A DNA stretch of 64,000 bases from Ruegeria sp. TM1040 (GTDB lineage: Bacteria > Pseudomonadota > Alphaproteobacteria > Rhodobacterales > Rhodobacteraceae), in NCBI RefSeq assembly GCF_000014065.1, contig NC_008044.1:1759501-1823500 (forward strand). Reading direction: 5' to 3'. The position numbers and the translations under genes are program-made. Below the pieces are notes generated by a model. That model saw only the letters and a list, made by a program, of their open reading frames with translations. It ran no database searches and was not told where the DNA came from. Positions within the stretch are counted from its first letter, which is position 1. The number at the start of each line of letters is the position of its first letter. Positions 1 through 28,805 of this stretch are shown piece after piece.

Positions 1-2942
1 AAGCCTGTGCGCGATGTCAGCTGCTCTTCTTGGCTATAGAAGTTGGTGAAGTAGCTGTTCACAGATGCATTGAAGGTATCAAGGCCACCGGCTGCATCGA
101 TCAGTTGCCGCGCCATATCTGCGCCGTAGACCGAGGTCTCAAACATCGCCCCATTGAGCAGTTCCATGGCCTGATTGGCCGAGGTGATCGAGGACACAAG
201 CGCATCCAGCGTGGCCGCGGCGTCTTCGCCTTCGCGGATCAGCCTGCCACCCATGGCCTCATTGAACGACCCCAATGCCGCGTAGGAGAACTGATCGGCG
301 ACGGTATCGAAGATGCGCTGGATCTCAGCATTGCGCGCCGCCTCATCCAGCCCCTTGAGGCTGACCTGGATCTGCGTGGACCAGCTTGAGAAATTATCAG
401 CAGTGAGACCAAGCTGCGCACCGGCAGCGCCAATTGAGGTGGTGATGTCTTCAATGGACTTGCGGATGGGCGCAGCCGTAGCCTCATCTGCCTCCTCAAA
501 GGTGAGGCTGACCTTTTTGGAGAGCCCCCAGAAGCGGGACTTCTGCACCTTGTCGAACTCTTCAACCAAGGTGCCCATATTATCGGCGGTCACGCGAAGG
601 CCGTTATCCAAGTGCTTGGTTTTGGTGGTGAAGAAGCTCACCGCTGCAGCAACAGCGCCCAGAGCGGGTAGCGCCGCGCCTACTGCGCCCCAGCCGCCCA
701 CCGAACCGGTCACCAGACCACCCAGGTTCGCAAAACTGGACCCAAGGCCACCACCTGACAGCACGCCGCCAAGGCCCGAGGAAATTCCACTCACAGCACC
801 GCTGAACGCACCACCACTGCCCAGTCCAAGGACGTTGCCAAGCAGGCCACTACCGCCCCCGGCTGCGGCCTGGGCGACCCCACCGGCCACGGCTCCGCCA
901 CCGCTGAACGCGGCCATGAACGGAACGACGATCTCGTTTTTCAGTGCCACCGAGATCATCTGCTTGAGCCAGTTCTCGAAGGTATCCAAGATGCCGTCGA
1001 GACCGTCGGTGAAGCCGTTGAAAAGGCCATCCACGAGGCCGTCTGTCAGATCACCGACAAGCGGCAATGAGTCGGCCAGTTCGACATTCAGATCGCGCAT
1101 CGCACGCGCCATTTCATCCTCGGACAAAATACCTTGGAACTTAGCCAGTTTTTCCAGCTCTTGCCGATAAGCCTCCATTGGGTCGAGAGATGCTTTGAGA
1201 GCCTTAAGCTCGTTTTCAAGCGCCTTGGTGGACTTGCCGCTGGCAGAGGACACCTTGTTCAGTGCACGCTCTCTCTCGCGAGCGGCTTCGCGCTCTTTAT
1301 CCAGCATGATATCCGCAGCCTGTCCCGAGCGGAAAACCCATCTCTCTGCCTCAATCGCCATCAGCTCAAAAACATTCGCACCTTGCGAGCGGGCGTTCCA
1401 ATCGGTCTCTCGATTGAATAGCTCGGCCTCTTGGCGCGCTGCCTTGATCGACTTACCGGCTTGCAGCGCTTCGATTTCCACGAATTTCGCCGCGTTAGAG
1501 AGCATGCCGCCGCCGATTGCAGACAGTGACGACATGATCGCTTGGATCTCAGAGTTGACACCCATCATGGCGTCGGCCCAGCGTATCGTCTGAGAGGTGG
1601 CCTCCTCGGTGTCGGACACAGCCCTGCTAGATGCCGTAATGATGGCCTCCAGCTGAACTACTGCATCTGTCAAAGCTGAAGGCAGCTTTTGTCCCTCAGG
1701 GTAGAACTCTCGAATGATATCTAGGGCTTCTTTGGACTCTCTTTGGATGTCCTCAAGCGCTTGTGCTCCACGAAGCTCGTCAAAGCCTGCCTTGATAGCG
1801 CGAATTTCTTCGGGCATGAGCCCGACGGCTTGAGCGGCTACATAAGCATCCTCTTCAAGTGCCTCGAAGTTCTCCTTGAATGTTTGGATCTGTTCAGAGG
1901 TGGCTCCGATCGACTTGTTTCGCTCCAACGCGGCAAGTGCATCTTCCATGGCAGAAATGGCAGATGCAGCATCACTCAGGTTCGCAAAAAGATCAAAGTT
2001 CTCAGTTTGCAAACCATCCAGTGCGCGCTTTATCGAGACCCCAGAGAGATACTCGTAGGTCTCTTTGACGTCCTCAGCAAAGATGCCAAACTCTTCTATT
2101 AGCTCCAGAGTTCCACGACGCGCGGCGTCAGCATACAGCGTGTAATCGTCGAGCGCCCCAACAAGCTCGCCCATCGCTTCAGAATTCAGGCGAGACTGTT
2201 CCTCCATTTCCCTTGAAGCATCACCTACCTCGAGTAGCCCAACAGCCATTGGCCCCAGCACGCTGATCAGGGTACCGGCTGCAATACCGGCAATACCGAA
2301 CATGGCGCCAATATCGGCAGCCTGAATTGCTGCGGCTCCGAGATAGTCACCAGTAACAGATCCTTGTTGGCCCACCTGGCTCAGCTGAAGGCCAATCTGC
2401 CTCAGATCATGGCTTCGTTCCTTGGAAAACAGCCCAAGAAAGCCTCTCGTTGGCGTGGAAGCCTTATCGGCCGCTGACGACGTGCCCAAATATCGCTGCT
2501 CTGCCAGCTGCAGCACGCGGTTTGCTTCTTGCTGCGTGACAAGGCCGGAACGCACAGCGTTTTCAGCCTGCTCTACCGCAGCCTCATATCGCTTGGATGA
2601 GGCGTAGACAGGATCGAGCGTTGAGCGCAGCCGATCAAAGGATTTGGCTTGCCGATCTAATTGCCCTGCCCACAGCTTTGCAGAAGCCGAAGCCGAGTTG
2701 GACGCCCGCTCCACACCTGTCAGCGCATCGATTTGCTTCTGTGCCGCAGAAGCTGCTTTCTTGAAACCATCATCCCAAGACCGCGCCATCCCTTCGGCGT
2801 GACGCAATGCATCTCGGCTGGTCTCTTCGAAACCAGTACGCAGATAACCAAGTGCCTTGCGCGCCCGAGCACTACCGGCCTCAAAAGAGGCGGTTTCCAA
2901 CGATGCTTCGGCGCGCAGGGCGCCAACTGGGATTGCAGACAT
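1..2942 (-). CDS. Phage tail tape-measure protein, 3' part beyond window edge
   Basis: About 980 codons are open to the left edge with no stop, so the protein is incomplete at its C terminus. It sets tail length and is a scaffold inside the growing tail tube. The N-terminal half is rich in alanine, glutamine and charged residues with long predicted helices. A hydrophobic stretch near 2180-2340 is followed by more helical sequence, and a Gly/Ala/Ser-rich hydrophobic segment (about 640-930) is typical of tape measures. The last visible part resembles the C-terminal region of tape measures in other alphaproteobacterial siphophages. The ATG was chosen because GGAG lies eight bases upstream. It is the last gene of the visible late operon, downstream of the tail chaperones as in lambda, but here a cargo block separates them. 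The family is judged from composition, size and position. Confidence 0.85.
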   Translation of the reverse strand, partial: MSAIPVGALRAEASLETASFEAGSARARKALGYLRTGFEETSRDALRHAEGMARSWDDGFKKAASAAQKQIDALTGVERASNSASASAKLWAGQLDRQAKSFDRLRSTLDPVYASSKRYEAAVEQAENAVRSGLVTQQEANRVLQLAEQRYLGTSSAADKASTPTRGFLGLFSKERSHDLRQIGLQLSQVGQQGSVTGDYLGAAAIQAADIGAMFGIAGIAAGTLISVLGPMAVGLLEVGDASREMEEQSRLNSEAMGELVGALDDYTLYADAARRGTLELIEEFGIFAEDVKETYEYLSGVSIKRALDGLQTENFDLFANLSDAASAISAMEDALAALERNKSIGATSEQIQTFKENFEALEEDAYVAAQAVGLMPEEIRAIKAGFDELRGAQALEDIQRESKEALDIIREFYPEGQKLPSALTDAVVQLEAIITASSRAVSDTEEATSQTIRWADAMMGVNSEIQAIMSSLSAIGGGMLSNAAKFVEIEALQAGKSIKAARQEAELFNRETDWNARSQGANVFELMAIEAERWVFRSGQAADIMLDKEREAARERERALNKVSSASGKSTKALENELKALKASLDPMEAYRQELEKLAKFQGILSEDEMARAMRDLNVELADSLPLVGDLTDGLVDGLFNGFTDGLDGILDTFENWLKQMISVALKNEIVVPFMAAFSGGGAVAGGVAQAAAGGGSGLLGNVLGLGSGGAFSGAVSGISSGLGGVLSGGGLGSSFANLGGLVTGSVGGWGAVGAALPALGAVAAAVSFFTTKTKHLDNGLRVTADNMGTLVEEFDKVQKSRFWGLSKKVSLTFEEADEATAAPIRKSIEDITTSIGAAGAQLGLTADNFSSWSTQIQVSLKGLDEAARNAEIQRIFDTVADQFSYAALGSFNEAMGGRLIREGEDAAATLDALVSSITSANQAMELLNGAMFETSVYGADMARQLIDAAGGLDTFNASVNSYFTNFYSQEEQLTSRTG

Positions 2943-3009
2943 ATGCTTGCTCCAGTGAGGGGAAACGTGAATGATCCCCATGAATTGGATTCAGGAGGAC
3001 TTTGAGGTG

Positions 3010-3309
3010 ATGAGGTTTTTGGTTGTAGCTGCGGGACTAATCGCATTTCAGGCGCCTGCCGCAGGGGCGCGAGGCTTCGATGTTCCGCATAGGGATTGTA
3101 TCAATCTCTTGGATGAGATTTACGACCTGCCCGCAGCTCTGGATAAGGTTTACGAGGCTCACTCAAGGCTACTGACGAAAGAGCAGAACCCCTCTCCAGA
3201 ACTTGAAAAGATTGCAACGCACCTGAAAGAGATGCGCCGAACTCATATAAAAGAATGGAAGGGCATTCCCGAAGAGCTTCGGGCCTACTGCGAAGGATTG
3301 AAGTTCTAG
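3010..3309 (+). CDS. Small secreted protein, probable prophage cargo (moron)
   Basis: A 99-residue protein begins with a clear signal peptide (Met-Arg, then a hydrophobic run ending in Ala-Gly-Ala near residue 20). The mature part is helical and charged, with two cysteines (in the HRDC and AYCEG segments) that could form a disulfide in the periplasm. AGGAGG lies about 11 bases before the ATG; an upstream in-frame ATG at 2971 would add 13 residues and spoil the signal peptide. It is transcribed against the surrounding late genes and ends at a GC hairpin, which is how independently expressed morons look. I do not recognise the family. A host-modifying role in the lysogen is inference only. Confidence 0.6.
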   Translation: MRFLVVAAGLIAFQAPAAGARGFDVPHRDCINLLDEIYDLPAALDKVYEAHSRLLTKEQNPSPELEKIATHLKEMRRTHIKEWKGIPEELRAYCEGLKF

Positions 3310-3349: not shown

Positions 3350-4300
3350 CTACAAATCTTCTTTACGTGCGGCGACAACCTCTCGGAAAACCATCAATGG
3401 TGTCATGCCATGCGCCGCTTTTGGTCTGCCGAGAAGAGTTCTGAATGCCGGCGCCAGATTTTCAAAAAGCTTCATGACCATTTCTTCGCCGTCGGGCGAA
3501 ACATCTCGAGCGCTTTGAGAGCCTAAAGTTGGCTCCGCGTCGAGAATTCCCAACATTGCCCAATCGCCAGGAACATCTGTACCATGTTTAAGCGCGATTT
3601 CCGACGGTGGCGTAGCGAGCCCTGAGGTGTCCATAGTGCACCAAACCCTGTTACCGTTTGCGTCTAAAACTTCAGCTTGGGCAGTATGTGGCAGCGTGGG
3701 TGCCATGTCCTTGAAGAGATCAAGGCTGAATTGTGCTTCTGCAAGGGCCTCTTTGGCGATTCGGACACTTGCTCTCATCTCCGGTGTTTCTTTTACACCT
3801 TTAGGCAATTTTGGAATTGTAGGAAGGCTCTCTTGGATCTTTCCCTGCACGGACTTCATCGACCAAAGCCCCGCCACCATCTGAAGATCGAAGATCGATA
3901 ACTTGCCTTTCACCAGAACGAGTTGCCCCAAGCAGGCGTCAGACAATCCTCGTTGAATTAGGCCTTTTTCATCTAGCGTGTCGAGGAGGGCCCGAGCATT
4001 TGACCACATTGGGTCATAAACGCGCTGAATCTCTTCTGCGTGAGACCGGCGGGTGATCTCCTTGGTGTCGTTCTTGGCAGACAGGACCCCAGGAAGGCCG
4101 CCGGTCACAGCTAGAGCGGCGTCGCTGTCTCTTCCCTCTTCAGCTGATTTTCCGGTGGAGACTGACTGTAAGTGCCCGGCTGGATCGAATTGGGCCAATA
4201 GCGATGCGATGCGACGTCCATCGTGATACAAAAAGTCAAAGACGGAATCGGTGATCTGACTTCCGCGCGCCTCGCTTGATGTCTCTTTTTGCTTCGTCAT
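3350..4300 (-). CDS. DUF6414-like protein of unknown function, prophage cargo
   Basis: A 316-residue protein whose N-terminal region reads FDFLYHDGRRIASLLAQ, followed by a small-residue-rich stretch and YDPMWSNARALLDTL. This pattern (F-L-Y-x-D-x-x-R-x-x-S-x-x-x-Q, later Y-D-P-x-x-x-N) is what I recall for the DUF6414 family; the match is from memory. No signal peptide or membrane segment is seen. The ATG at 4300 follows GGAGG with a 12-base gap; an upstream start at 4330 would add ten residues. It interrupts the usual order of tail chaperone then tape measure, so it is more likely cargo than a structural part. Anti-phage or superinfection exclusion roles are possible but unproven. Confidence 0.55.
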   Translation of the reverse strand: MTKQKETSSEARGSQITDSVFDFLYHDGRRIASLLAQFDPAGHLQSVSTGKSAEEGRDSDAALAVTGGLPGVLSAKNDTKEITRRSHAEEIQRVYDPMWSNARALLDTLDEKGLIQRGLSDACLGQLVLVKGKLSIFDLQMVAGLWSMKSVQGKIQESLPTIPKLPKGVKETPEMRASVRIAKEALAEAQFSLDLFKDMAPTLPHTAQAEVLDANGNRVWCTMDTSGLATPPSEIALKHGTDVPGDWAMLGILDAEPTLGSQSARDVSPDGEEMVMKLFENLAPAFRTLLGRPKAAHGMTPLMVFREVVAARKEDL

Positions 4301-4427
4301 GTTTTCGATCAACCTCCTTGCTTTCCTCAAGGAGCTCTTCGCGGCGGTTCAAAATCCTGTTTTTCAACATCTTAAATCTACCCAAAATGCAGGCCTTTGT
4401 TTCTGGCTTTTCCTTAGCTTTTTGCAT
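4236..4427 (-). CDS. Small charged helical ORF, uncertain
   Basis: A 63-residue ORF that is almost entirely charged (many Lys, Arg, Glu) and would form one long helix. GAGG lies about seven bases before its ATG. It overlaps the start of the DUF6414-like gene by 65 bases in another frame, so it could be a coupled small gene or a leader ORF. I do not recognise it, and it may be spurious. Confidence 0.3.
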   Translation of the reverse strand: MQKAKEKPETKACILGRFKMLKNRILNRREELLEESKEVDRKHDEAKRDIKRGARKSDHRFRL

Positions 4428-4493: not shown

Positions 4494-4946
4494 TCACGAC
4501 CCCGCCATTGCAGACAGAGCCGCGCCCACTTTGTCCGAAAGCTTCTTGCGCTCCATCGCAACGCCAGGATCGTTATCCGGCCTGTCGTCATAGGCTGGAG
4601 AAACCTGCATAGGCCTCTGGCCTCGCGCCATACCGGCGACATATGACACGCTCATCGCGCGGACCTGCTTGGCCTCCCACGGCTCAAGATTAAGGCCCGA
4701 CTCTTTCGAGAAGGCCCGGATCTCGGACCAAGCGACCGGCTCAGCACCACCCATCTGATCGAAGGAGCACCAGCCAAGGCCCTCCTGCGCCATCATGTCC
4801 AGAAGGTATTCGACCCCGGATATATCAGGCAATGCGAAGTCGATGCCCTCTCTCTGCCAGAGCTTGAAGCGGCTGGTTTTCCATTCTTCAGGCCTTGCTG
4901 CAAGGAAACCGGCCTGGGCTGCATAGAGCGTCAGCCGGCGGAGGCG
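4494..4946 (-). CDS. Tail assembly chaperone, T-like part made by -1 frameshift
   Basis: This frame has no convincing start codon of its own: it opens after a TAA only eight codons before the slip site of the upstream gene, and the first ATG-type start (TTG at 4832) has no ribosome site. Its product is therefore expected only as a C-terminal extension of the upstream protein, giving a fusion of about 295 residues (145 from the G-like part, 150 from here). In lambda the gpG/gpGT pair coats and positions the tape-measure protein during tail assembly. The first residues after the slip (LTLYAAQAGFLAARPEEW) resemble the region of phage tail chaperones that shows such fusions. The conserved position upstream of the tape measure supports the role. 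Confidence 0.75.
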   Translation of the reverse strand, partial: RLRRLTLYAAQAGFLAARPEEWKTSRFKLWQREGIDFALPDISGVEYLLDMMAQEGLGWCSFDQMGGAEPVAWSEIRAFSKESGLNLEPWEAKQVRAMSVSYVAGMARGQRPMQVSPAYDDRPDNDPGVAMERKKLSDKVGAALSAMAGS

Positions 4947-5380
4947 TTTCCCAAGTAGCCGCCGCGCTTAGCGGAGAACTCAGCAGCCTGTTCAGCAAAT
5001 GACTTTTCGCCTTCCTGACCATTAAAGCGATTCAGGCCAAAGAACCATTTCGCGTCACGCTTCGTAGCGGGTTTGTCACCGTTGAAAACATTGTTGAAAC
5101 CGACCACACGGGGAAGCAATCCTTCGACCAACTTATCGTGGATCTGGTCATACGATACACCTTCGTCATCCGTATCACCTTCGGCGTCCTGCGAATTGGC
5201 GCGCGCCTTCTGAAGCTCGCGCATCGCTGCACGAACAGACGGAGCTTCAGAACCCAGAAGGATTACCTCACAAGGCTTGCCATCCTCAGTGAACAGTGGC
5301 GCCAAGGTGGCCGGGTCTTTCAGTTGCATAGCTGCGCCTTTTTCTGCGGCAGAAACGCTGTCGAACTTGTTGAAATCCAT
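4931..5380 (-). CDS. Tail assembly chaperone, G-like protein
   Basis: A 149-residue acidic protein starting MDFNKFDSVS, encoded immediately after the tail tube gene and before the T-like frame. This is the lambda gpG position. Residues 1-75 form the conserved chaperone core; a charged linker (GDTDDEG) follows. A short C-terminal tail is replaced by the T-like domain when ribosomes slip at 4946-4952. Most translation should stop at the TGA at 4931-4933. Assignment rests on gene order, size and the frameshift arrangement. Confidence 0.8.
   Translation of the reverse strand: MDFNKFDSVSAAEKGAAMQLKDPATLAPLFTEDGKPCEVILLGSEAPSVRAAMRELQKARANSQDAEGDTDDEGVSYDQIHDKLVEGLLPRVVGFNNVFNGDKPATKRDAKWFFGLNRFNGQEGEKSFAEQAAEFSAKRGGYLGNASAG
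4946..4952 (-). promoter_or_regulatory. Slippery heptamer GGGAAAC for -1 ribosomal frameshifting
   Basis: Read on the minus strand the zero frame is TTG GGA AAC GCC; slipping back one base re-pairs both tRNAs on GGG AAA. This is the X-XXY-YYZ pattern and differs in one base from the lambda G/T site (GGGAAAG). It lies 13 bases before the zero-frame stop, and the -1 frame opens only about 18 bases upstream, so the overlap just contains the site. Confidence 0.85.
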
Positions 5381-5478: not shown

Positions 5479-5928
5479 TTAGGCTGCGGCCTTCTTCAGG
5501 ATCTCGTCGGGCATGATCTCAATCGAGGTAGTCGCCGTCACAACGTCATCGACACCGCCGATGCTCGGCTTGAACGACATGACCAGACCCACAAGGTAGT
5601 AGATCGTGCCATCTTGGAGTGTCACGGCGATGTAGACAGGATCATCGCTTTCGAGAGCGGTTTCCATTGCAGCTTGGCCCGCGTCGTCGGGGTCAAGCGC
5701 GAGGCTGGGGCTCAGGGTGCCGTTATTGAAGCTACCCTTGCCTTTCTTCGTGCCGCGGGTGGCCAGCGGGTTGTGAGTCACAAGTTGCCACTCCTTGCCG
5801 AACTCACCCACGTTCGTGATTTCACCAACGGAAGTGAAGGTGAGAGCGTCAAAGCCGGTGATGTCGTGAGTTGCGGGTGCAGCGGCCGAAATGCCGAGTG
5901 TCACCCCAGAGGCGGTCTGGTGCGCCAT
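5479..5928 (-). CDS. Major tail tube protein
   Basis: A 149-residue, mostly beta-strand protein (MAHQTASGVTLGISAAAP) of the phage tail tube class, which polymerises as stacked hexameric rings to form the tail tube. The phrases DITGFDALTFTSVGEITNVGEFG and YLVGLVMSFKP are typical of tail tube proteins in HK97-like alphaproteobacterial phages. It sits between the tail terminator block and the chaperones, as expected. The ATG is preceded by a good GGAAAC-type site within ten bases. Confidence 0.85.
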   Translation of the reverse strand: MAHQTASGVTLGISAAAPATHDITGFDALTFTSVGEITNVGEFGKEWQLVTHNPLATRGTKKGKGSFNNGTLSPSLALDPDDAGQAAMETALESDDPVYIAVTLQDGTIYYLVGLVMSFKPSIGGVDDVVTATTSIEIMPDEILKKAAA

Positions 5929-6314: not shown

Positions 6315-6668
6315 TCAGTCGCGATAAGTGATCGCGAATGTCAGAGAGACCCGGTGTGCAGCCGAGGCATCGCCGCTGTTGCTGTCTCGGATCGCAGTGA
6401 GAAGCGCACTGACGATCGGGCCGCCGCGGTATCCTTCCAGTAAAGCCCGGACTTCACGAGACGCGCCGATAGCTTGATTATAGGTCGCGCCCCAGCAGTC
6501 GATCTGAGTGGAGCCTTGCATCAGCCCCTTGCTGTTCAGGGTGTGGTAGCGCTTCCCCGACATACGGGTCATGGTCACGCGTGGCATGGTCTCCCCATCG
6601 CTGAAGAAGCCCCACTTCACCGGGCAACTCAGGGCGTCGGAGAGAGTTGAATACAGGTGCTCTTCCAT
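6315..6668 (-). CDS. Tail terminator-like protein (DUF3168 family)
   Basis: A 117-residue protein (MEEHLYSTLSDALSCPVKW...) with the DUF3168 layout: an N-terminal helix, a central beta region ending in QIDCWG, then a helix (QAIGASREVRALLEGY) and a final beta strand with LTFAITYRD. In related phages this family caps the tail tube, like lambda gpU. Its ATG shares one base with the stop of the upstream gene (TAATG), showing translational coupling. The larger ORF in this frame that runs upstream was rejected because it covers the well-supported HK97 gp10-like gene. Confidence 0.8.
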   Translation of the reverse strand: MEEHLYSTLSDALSCPVKWGFFSDGETMPRVTMTRMSGKRYHTLNSKGLMQGSTQIDCWGATYNQAIGASREVRALLEGYRGGPIVSALLTAIRDSNSGDASAAHRVSLTFAITYRD

Positions 6669-27347: not shown

Positions 27348-27556
27348 TGGTGAGTGTTACCCCTGCCGCCCTGAGGGAGGCCAACGCTGCCGCATACCTC
27401 GATATGCCCGTTGCCAAATTCCGGGATCTTGTGAGCCGCGGGGCTTTGCCGAAACCCGTCATTATCGCTGATGATGTGGAGAGGTGGAAATCCGAAGACC
27501 TGCTTGCCATACTAAACGGCAACGCGGCCCGGCCCAGCGAGGACTTTGAACTGTGA
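27347..27556 (+). CDS. Excisionase-like helix-turn-helix protein
   Basis: A 69-residue protein with the winged helix-turn-helix pattern of AlpA/Xis: LREANAAAYLDMPVAKFRDLVSRGALPKPVIIADDVERWKSEDL. The ADDVERW segment is the usual wing. It directly precedes the integrase and overlaps it by four bases, as excisionases do, so it probably steers integrase towards excision. A longer frame starting at 27,278 was rejected because the coupled ATG at 27,347 fits better. Confidence 0.75.
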   Translation: MVSVTPAALREANAAAYLDMPVAKFRDLVSRGALPKPVIIADDVERWKSEDLLAILNGNAARPSEDFEL

Positions 27557-28599
27557 GACGCCCGAATAAGCCACGTATCGTCAAGCCGGGGCTTGTTTGG
27601 AAATGGGACACCCGCAACTCGATCTGGGTGCCCTATCACCGTGTGAACTGGACAGAGGGCGGCAAGAGAAAGCAGCGAACGACAAAGCTGGACTGGCGGG
27701 GCGACTCTGAGCGCCTCGACATGCTTTATTGGCAGTGCCGAGCTGGCAAACACAAAAAACAGACAGCTCCGGCGAAGTACACGTGGCGGCAACTTATCAC
27801 CGCGTGGCGCGAAGATCCGCGTGTTCAGTCTCGATTGGCGGATGGAACAAAGCGCAGCTATTCCAGAACGATGGAAGCCATACTTGATAAGAACAGTGAC
27901 AAGGACGTGAGGCGAACCACACGCCAAGCAATTCGAACCGCGCACTCCAAGATGTCCGAAACTCCGAGGAAAGCGGACAAGTATCTGCAGACCGTGAGCC
28001 TTCTTTGGAACTATGGCGCCGAGAAACTAGACTGGCCCCTCGGTCCAAATCCAGCGAAAGGCATTGAACACTTCGGTAAGCAGAGCGAGTATGAGCCCTG
28101 GCCGGAATGGATGGTCGACAAGCTCAAGGATGCGCCGGAACATGTGCGCACTGCCGCTGAATTGATCCTAGGGACAGGTCAGAGACCCAATGCGGCCATT
28201 CACATGAAGTTCGCACACTTTGACGGCGAATGGATGAGCGTCCTTGATGAGAAGAGCGACGAACGGATTGATGTTTATTGTCCTCCAGCCCTGCGCGAGT
28301 TCATCTCGCGAGCGCCACGCAACGGAGCTTACGTTTTAGCGAAGAACCTTACAGAGCCCCGAGGCTACTGGTCGATCTCTTCATCATTTCGCACATGGCG
28401 CGATGCACTCGGCCCGGAGGCGAAGAAGTACGTTCTGCATGGCCTGCGCAAACTCTCTATCATCCGCCTCGCCGAGGCTGGTTGCAGTGATGCCGAAATT
28501 CAAGCCGTTACGAACCAAAGCGCAGAGATGGTGGCTTACTATCGCTCTCGGGCCAGCCGCAAAGCGCTCTCACGCGCCGCTCAAGAGCGCCGAAAGTGA
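27553..28599 (+). CDS. int: Tyrosine recombinase (prophage integrase)
   Basis: A 348-residue tyrosine integrase. The N-terminal part (1-80) is the DNA-arm binding region; residues 95-175 form the core-binding helices. The catalytic part has Arg211 in LGTGQRPNAA, the HGLRK box with His296 and Arg299, and a nucleophile Tyr at 329 or 330 in EMVAYYRSR. The usual later His is replaced here by Asn-Gln-Ser, a tolerated variation. It starts at GTG overlapping the excisionase stop. The integrase end faces a tRNA-Leu gene 120 bases away, its likely target. Confidence 0.9.
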   Translation: MRRPNKPRIVKPGLVWKWDTRNSIWVPYHRVNWTEGGKRKQRTTKLDWRGDSERLDMLYWQCRAGKHKKQTAPAKYTWRQLITAWREDPRVQSRLADGTKRSYSRTMEAILDKNSDKDVRRTTRQAIRTAHSKMSETPRKADKYLQTVSLLWNYGAEKLDWPLGPNPAKGIEHFGKQSEYEPWPEWMVDKLKDAPEHVRTAAELILGTGQRPNAAIHMKFAHFDGEWMSVLDEKSDERIDVYCPPALREFISRAPRNGAYVLAKNLTEPRGYWSISSSFRTWRDALGPEAKKYVLHGLRKLSIIRLAEAGCSDAEIQAVTNQSAEMVAYYRSRASRKALSRAAQERRK

Positions 28600-28721: not shown

Positions 28722-28770
28722 TGGTACGGGCGGCGGGACTCGAACCCGCACGGCTAAAGCCTGGGGATTT
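28722..28770. other. Probable prophage attachment site (tRNA 3' half)
   Basis: The tRNA 3' end faces the integrase. Phages that use tRNA genes recombine within the 3' half and rebuild it, leaving a complete tRNA on the integrase side, which fits this layout. The other junction lies outside the window, so the repeat length cannot be checked. Confidence 0.5.
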
Positions 28771-28805
28771 TAAGTCCCCTGTGTCTACCATTCCACCACG
28801 CCCGC
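28722..28805 (-). tRNA. tRNA-Leu (anticodon UAA)
   Basis: An 84-base gene including the encoded CCA. The acceptor stem GCGGGCG pairs with CGCCCGT; the anticodon loop CTTAAAA in a GGGGA/TCCCC stem gives UAA; the long variable arm (GGC/GCC stem) marks a class II leucine tRNA; the T arm is GCGGGTTCGAGTCCCGC. It seems intact and serves as the phage integration target. Confidence 0.95.

Follow-up and report, generated by a model that had tools for sequence, protein, structure and literature searches.

Two reading frames overlap in the −1 relation in the tail gene cluster of a Ruegeria sp. TM1040 prophage, and the question is whether they are expressed as two proteins, one of them a fusion produced by ribosomal frameshifting. 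The window that we analysed is a 64,000-nucleotide (nt) stretch of contig NC_008044.1, the left part of which is a prophage read on the minus strand. Our analysis favours the view that this siphophage tail module uses programmed −1 ribosomal frameshifting to make both G and a G-T fusion, and we give this reading a probability of about 0.94; the slippage itself we infer from the arrangement of frames and signal. Frameshifting in tail chaperones is an already known mechanism, for which the founding survey is reportedly that of Xu, Hendrix and Duda (2004). The features concerned are as follows.

5380–4931, minus strand: G, putative tail assembly chaperone, zero frame, 149 codons (149 aa), ATG start, TGA at 4933–4931
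4952–4946, minus strand: candidate slippery heptamer GGGAAAC (G_GGA_AAC), in X_XXY_YYZ phase
4931–4967, minus strand: overlap of the zero and −1 frames, 37 nt, holding the heptamer
4494–4946, minus strand: T part of the predicted G-T fusion, −1 frame, 150 aa plus stop (4496–4494)
5479–5928, minus strand: major tail protein, the probable partner of T (phrog_158, E 1.9e-19)
6315–6668, minus strand: tail terminator-like gene, upstream (phrog_347, E 5.1e-6)
3–2981, minus strand: tape measure protein, the probable partner of G, a 993-aa open frame that runs out of the window (phrog_24, a weak match at E 1.8e-4)

The zero-frame 3′ end of G reads TTG GGA AAC GCC TCC GCC GGC TGA, with 12 nt between the heptamer and the G stop. 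The sequence-only reading had built its case on TTG GGA AAC before this stop, with GGGAAAC in slip phase and inside the frame overlap, and on a fusion of 295 residues; the letters bear out each of these points, the overlap containing the whole heptamer and the frames giving 145 + 150 residues. Its statement that the −1 frame opens eight codons upstream needs correction: the last upstream stop is at 4970–4968, and from 4967, which is 15 nt or five codons 5′ of the heptamer, the frame is open. In the mechanism that we propose, most ribosomes would terminate at the TGA of G, yielding the 149-residue chaperone, and in a minority the tRNA-Gly and tRNA-Asn on GGA AAC would move back by one base to GGG AAA, after which these ribosomes would continue into T and make the 295-residue fusion. 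By analogy with lambda, the tape measure protein would be bound by G, and the rare fusion would use its T part to recruit the major tail protein.

The genomic setting is that of a tail module. Reading of the frames gives the order terminase, portal, protease, capsid and connectors, and family searches give neck protein, tail terminator, major tail protein, G/T pair and tape measure. Pairs of the lambda G/GT kind are recognized by a position between the major tail protein and tape measure genes, which is where G and T lie. A DUF6414-like gene and a small ORF (together 3350–4427, minus strand) and a plus-strand ORF (2971–3309) are found between T and the tape measure gene; the first of these matches phrog_9699 (E 7.6e-46), with a DUF6414 match below the cut-off, and a PADLOC search returned no match. 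In a second prophage of the same genome, a frame like the window's tape measure starts about 380 nt after T, and for this reason the intervening genes look like inserted cargo. Elsewhere in the window, an integrase-like frame, judged by eye, occupies 27553–28599 and adjoins a tRNA-Leu(TAA) at 28722–28805; the segment 27553–28805 is a probable attachment site. An excerpt of PMC5488378 describes three mitomycin C-inducible prophages in TM1040.

Taken alone, the sequence of the window gene makes a moderate case that the heptamer is not a product of chance. When the codons of G were shuffled, an in-phase XXXYYYZ of any kind fell in the overlap with P = 0.06, a heptamer from a chosen subset of commonly slippery ones with P = 0.034, and GGGAAAC with P = 0.00125 (0.125% of trials). 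As a plain string GGGAAAC is not rare in the window, with 10 occurrences observed and 7.8 expected, and the identical in-phase scan recovers the GGGAAAG of lambda. It is comparison across relatives that gives the heptamer its significance.

Relatives were collected with a profile, built from eight G proteins whose genes all have GGGAAAC or GGGAAAG sites, which was converted into one DNA pattern covering only the N-terminal MDF...FD motif of G, with the slip site outside it. The pattern matched 135 viral-contig and 49 genome-contig stretches, and tblastn with the whole window G, a step that does include the slip-site residues, confirmed 71 and 8 of them, giving 79 loci. One (L151), which has no T frame and matched over just 45 residues, was excluded. 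Conservation of the heptamer in homologous phages, a check proposed by the sequence-only reading, is evident in the remaining 78 loci: GGGAAAC is present in phase in 75, and some in-phase XXXYYYZ in 77, even though identity between the window G and family members falls as low as 25%. The three loci that do not have GGGAAAC carry TTTTTTG (L134), TTTTTTC (L142) and only GGGGGAA (L126). In the last of these, the G end has a run of five G in place of GGGAAAC, and T is still in the −1 frame. The −1 frame extends at least 66 codons beyond the G stop in 76 of the 78 loci, the other two (L074, L131) running into a contig end. Some of the loci are near-duplicates; thinning to less than 95% identity leaves 50, with XXXYYYZ in 49 and GGGAAAC in 47, and thinning to less than 70% leaves 27, with XXXYYYZ in 27 and GGGAAAC in 25. 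Codon shuffling of the 50 non-redundant loci (400 rounds) left an in-phase XXXYYYZ within 60 nt of the end of G in a mean of 3.8 loci and a maximum of 9, compared with the 49 observed.

Weak T matches from the genome searches (L019, L020, L023–L025, L028–L037, L062–L066) are other genes or have no G frame with an in-phase site, and were not counted as family. The locus of Acinetobacter phage HHU4 (L014) is truncated by the end of its record, which leaves no readable site. Six of the nine phage matches of one search were taken, the other three being copies or near copies, and two new ones came from the six of another. As a probe of 385 whole genomes, phrog_18915 found no match outside the window's own genome.

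Judged by the bases at and around it, the heptamer is kept beyond the protein requirement. The conserved Gly of the site is encoded by GGA in 47 of the 50 non-redundant loci (GGG, GGG and GGC in L126, L134 and L142, respectively), compared with 38 of the 528 other Gly codons in those G genes. T precedes and G follows GGGAAAC in 47/47 loci, and among the 43 loci whose heptamer lies 12 nt from the stop, TGGGAAACG shows no variation in any of its nine columns; the spacing is constant because the zero-frame stop falls in the codon of a Leu that is conserved in T (CTG A.., CTA A.., CTA G..). The G following the heptamer encodes Arg 1 of T, whose column does not vary across the alignment of 38 T parts. 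Counting back from the Leu, the residues at this column are V, I, A, Q and I in the TTTTTTG class (L056–L059 and L070), and R in L040; given the non-Arg residues in the former five, the G after the heptamer may be required at the base level.

Could T instead be translated from a start of its own, by separate initiation or by coupling to termination of G? Candidate starts do exist. The first ATG, GTG or TTG of the window's −1 frame is TTG 4832, 38 codons into the T part, and 21 of the 50 non-redundant loci have some such codon in the T frame between 20 codons before and 15 codons after the G stop. In that interval, however, none of the 50 has ATG or GTG with an SD-like 4-mer, and no start position common to the family was found among them; ATG or GTG with an SD-like 4-mer does occur 18–30 codons past the G stop in at least six loci (L093, L096, L104, L125, L133, L142), counted among the first three start codons per locus. 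Initiation at 4832 would drop T residues 1–38, which comprise two predicted helices and conserved columns, and it leaves the kept heptamer unexplained. The T model (mean pLDDT 94.5) has a helix at residues 2–16 and a predicted fold from the second residue on, that is, the modelled fold begins at the junction. Independent translation of T is, in our judgement, very unlikely. The claim that the T frame has no credible start of its own stands, in that no usable start lies near the junction; and a conserved independent start in relatives, which the sequence-only reading had named as evidence that would count against it, is not found in the 50 loci. A second frame in the −1 relation, overlapping the end of G and without its own start, is a further mark of the lambda G/GT kind, and T is such a frame.

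The second prophage bears on a different explanation, in which the split is a sequencing error or the remnant of a decayed gene whose intact form was read in one frame. Over the G/T region it is 89% identical to the window copy, with an identical overlap and heptamer. About 40 kb separates the two prophages (C3:1724 kb and 1764 kb); their G proteins are identical and their T proteins differ by about 20%. All 17 nucleotide differences in G fall at zero-frame third positions (17/17), and the 86 in T are distributed over −1-frame third (56), first (22) and second (8) positions; by this codon-position pattern, both frames are under selection as coding sequence. Nothing beyond the split itself favours error or decay, and a frame-joining sequencing error, the other outcome that had been named as fatal to the frameshift, is excluded by the identical arrangement in the second prophage and by the long −1 frame of the 76 related loci (contig ends accounting for the other two). 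Together with the selection seen in both frames, this leaves error or decay with virtually no chance of being correct. The fusion could also be made by transcriptional rather than ribosomal slippage, which the runs of six T in some relatives would suit; the window site, however, has runs of three only, and tandem tRNA slippage is consistent with the phase of the heptamer and with its codons, GGA and AAC. We hold transcriptional slippage to be extremely unlikely, and the programmed ribosomal frameshift is the reading carried forward here.

Stimulatory elements were sought on both sides of the heptamer. Folding of the region 3′ of 4946, a check put forward with the original reading, supports no structure in the window copy, where z-scores of 0.02 to 0.58 are no better than those of shuffles. 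A hairpin with a 6-nt spacer (GCCGGCU + GGCCGGU) was considered and rejected: over 12 rows 46.7% of cells pair, compared with 47.7% after shuffling, and it is not conserved. In the 60 nt that follow the heptamer, the mean z over 46 loci is −1.34, with 39% below −2, compared with means of −0.90 to 0.07 in nine upstream windows; windows further into T are also low (−1.14 at +60, −0.90 at +120 and −0.89 at +280), and the 3′ folding signal is therefore not site-specific. RNAalifold, applied to 40 of 42 loci, returned only a 3-bp helix at −0.39 kcal/mol and no common structure. In L098, L105, L112, L123 and their kin, a GC hairpin (GCGGC/GCCGC) lies 7 nt after the heptamer, beside or over the zero-frame stop; in this subgroup of 15, each of its five base pairs is retained by between 13 and 15 of the loci, G-U pairs counted, with no compensatory change. 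Upstream of GGGAAAC, an anti-SD duplex of −6 kcal/mol or stronger is present at 1 of 48 sites compared with 15% of background positions, giving no indication of an SD-like stimulator in this class. Mean duplex energies upstream of TTTTTTG (−5.8, six sites) and TTTTTTC (−6.1, four sites) look stronger than the −3.5 of background, though from few sites.

Most of the more distant relatives that we read keep the −1 relation and have other slippery sites, a few being without any XXXYYYZ. GGGAAAG is present in Paracoccus phage Pkon1; TTTTTTG in five loci of four genomes (L056–L059, L070); TTTTTTC in Vibrio phages 230E39-1 and 1.151.O and in genomes G086 and G088; AAATTTT in Salicola phage CGphi29, two Acinetobacter phages and G700; and GGGAAAC itself in the distant relative G248. 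Vibrio phages pYD38-B and F89 g1 (L158, L159) have a related T in the −1 frame and no in-phase XXXYYYZ, only T_TTT, and L021/L060 (G291) likewise keep the −1 relation with only T_TTT tetramers and no in-phase XXXYYYZ near the stop. The TM1040 genome holds a third, only distantly related G/T pair (L040/L164, C3:857091–858004), whose in-phase site, TTTTTTG, precedes the stop by 39 nt. A quickly built tree of 63 T parts implies no fewer than 12 changes of site type, and for GGGAAAC three or more are required by branches with good support; many of the deep branches of this tree are weak, and the program gave a long-branch warning.

Four loci (L089–L092) carry TTTTTTGGGAAACG, which amounts to two usable slip sites, nested, and is possibly an intermediate between site types. 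We tentatively suggest, as an idea more doubtful than probable, that the signal is selected at the level of bases as the nonamer TGGGAAACG, with AAC in place of the AAG that E. coli favours, and changes by a relay between TTT TTG and GGA AAC two codons on. The conserved peptide Phe/Tyr-Leu-Gly-Asn would be codable for slippage at either of these two sites, and either slip in L089 (TTTTTTGGGAAACG) would give the same fusion length (NFLGKR or NFLGNR). If the relay is true, slip sites are exchangeable without loss of the fusion protein. For Escherichia coli, PMC5009743 reports that A_AAA_AAG shifts far more than A_AAA_AAC, a point against the frameshift reading. A second host tRNA-Lys as the reason for AAC over AAG is unsupported: a pattern search detected a single tRNA-Lys(UUU) and no tRNA-Lys with the CUU anticodon.

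What the analysis adds to the known mechanism is a slip signal that is kept almost letter for letter within a chaperone family, together with a predicted function and a corrected reading for two genes that are called hypothetical, conserved hypothetical or uncharacterised in nine related phage records (L009–L014, L158–L160), where T is mostly called from an internal start. A function is also proposed for PHROG 18915. The family forms a natural series for following the retention and replacement of slip sites as proteins diverge to about 25–30% identity.

Among known families, window G matched none of those searched; phrog_313 (tail assembly chaperone) is matched by 21 of 47 family G members at E ≤ 0.01. 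T matches phrog_18915, with function not assigned in PHROGs, as do 56 of the 57 family rows. Window T scores 19.4 bits against Phage_TAC_18 (PF23812), below the curated cut-off of 27, and 36 of 57 family members match PF23812 at E ≤ 0.01. One further family, phrog_4966 (311 positions), matches G at 9–149 and T at 239–306, window T only at E 0.0097; because it spans G and T, PHROGs already holds both parts as one protein. PDB searches by sequence and fold returned nothing useful. The G model (pLDDT 89.5) matches the tape-measure chaperone of Sansa in Foldseek (short form, E 7.2e-6; long form, E 4.6e-5) and, more weakly, the chaperones of Seurat, Colossus (E 0.015) and Loki. The T model has no fold match at E 0.001, its best match with a named function being the Seurat chaperone (0.088), and its comparison with the Sansa long form (E 3.2) gives no added support for T homology.

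GGGAAAC sites in tail chaperones are in print for other phages. It is the predicted slip site of Caulobacter phage CcrColossus gp116/gp117 and Burkholderia phage KL1 gp18/gp19 according to partial texts of PMC3556154 and PMC3483164, with the stop directly after the heptamer, unlike the 12 nt of the window; the Colossus site could also be read directly in its sequence, and a profile comparison of the window G with Colossus G gave no match. Extracts from the literature likewise report GGGAAAC at the predicted tail-chaperone frameshift of HCTV-1 and AAAAAAC as the predicted site of Loki (PMC5313236), and a Rhodobacter capsulatus phage survey treats a tail-chaperone frameshift as usual (PMC8601537). 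Among the matches listed in a mostly open-access literature search, we recognised no paper on the TM1040 pair or on conservation of the site in this family.

Alongside CcrColossus and KL1, two further systems serve as close comparisons. Lambda G/GT (NC_001416) is alike in gene order, −1 frame and GGGAAA core, and differs in its heptamer, GGGAAAG, which lies 15 nt before the G stop rather than 12; hhalign probabilities of 0.1 and 0.3 percent for G and T indicate no detectable homology with the lambda proteins. The pair of the Caulobacter phage Sansa (KT001913, 19655–20140 and join to 20586) is homologous in G (hhalign 96.8%, E 2.1e-10) and in T (84.8%, E 6.5e-6, over only 62 columns, Sansa T residues 88–149); its record annotates ribosomal slippage (20116), and it adjoins the tape measure gene, as in the window prophage. 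Sansa's in-phase heptamer is GGGAAAA, with A instead of C at the Z base, and lies 21 nt before the G stop compared with 12 nt in the window. The lambda G/GT logic proposed in the sequence-only reading draws support from gene order, from a heptamer in phase within a −1 overlap, from deep conservation and from there being no usable T start near the junction, and on these sequence comparisons the TM1040 pair is a pair of Sansa-type chaperones predicted to work like lambda G/GT.
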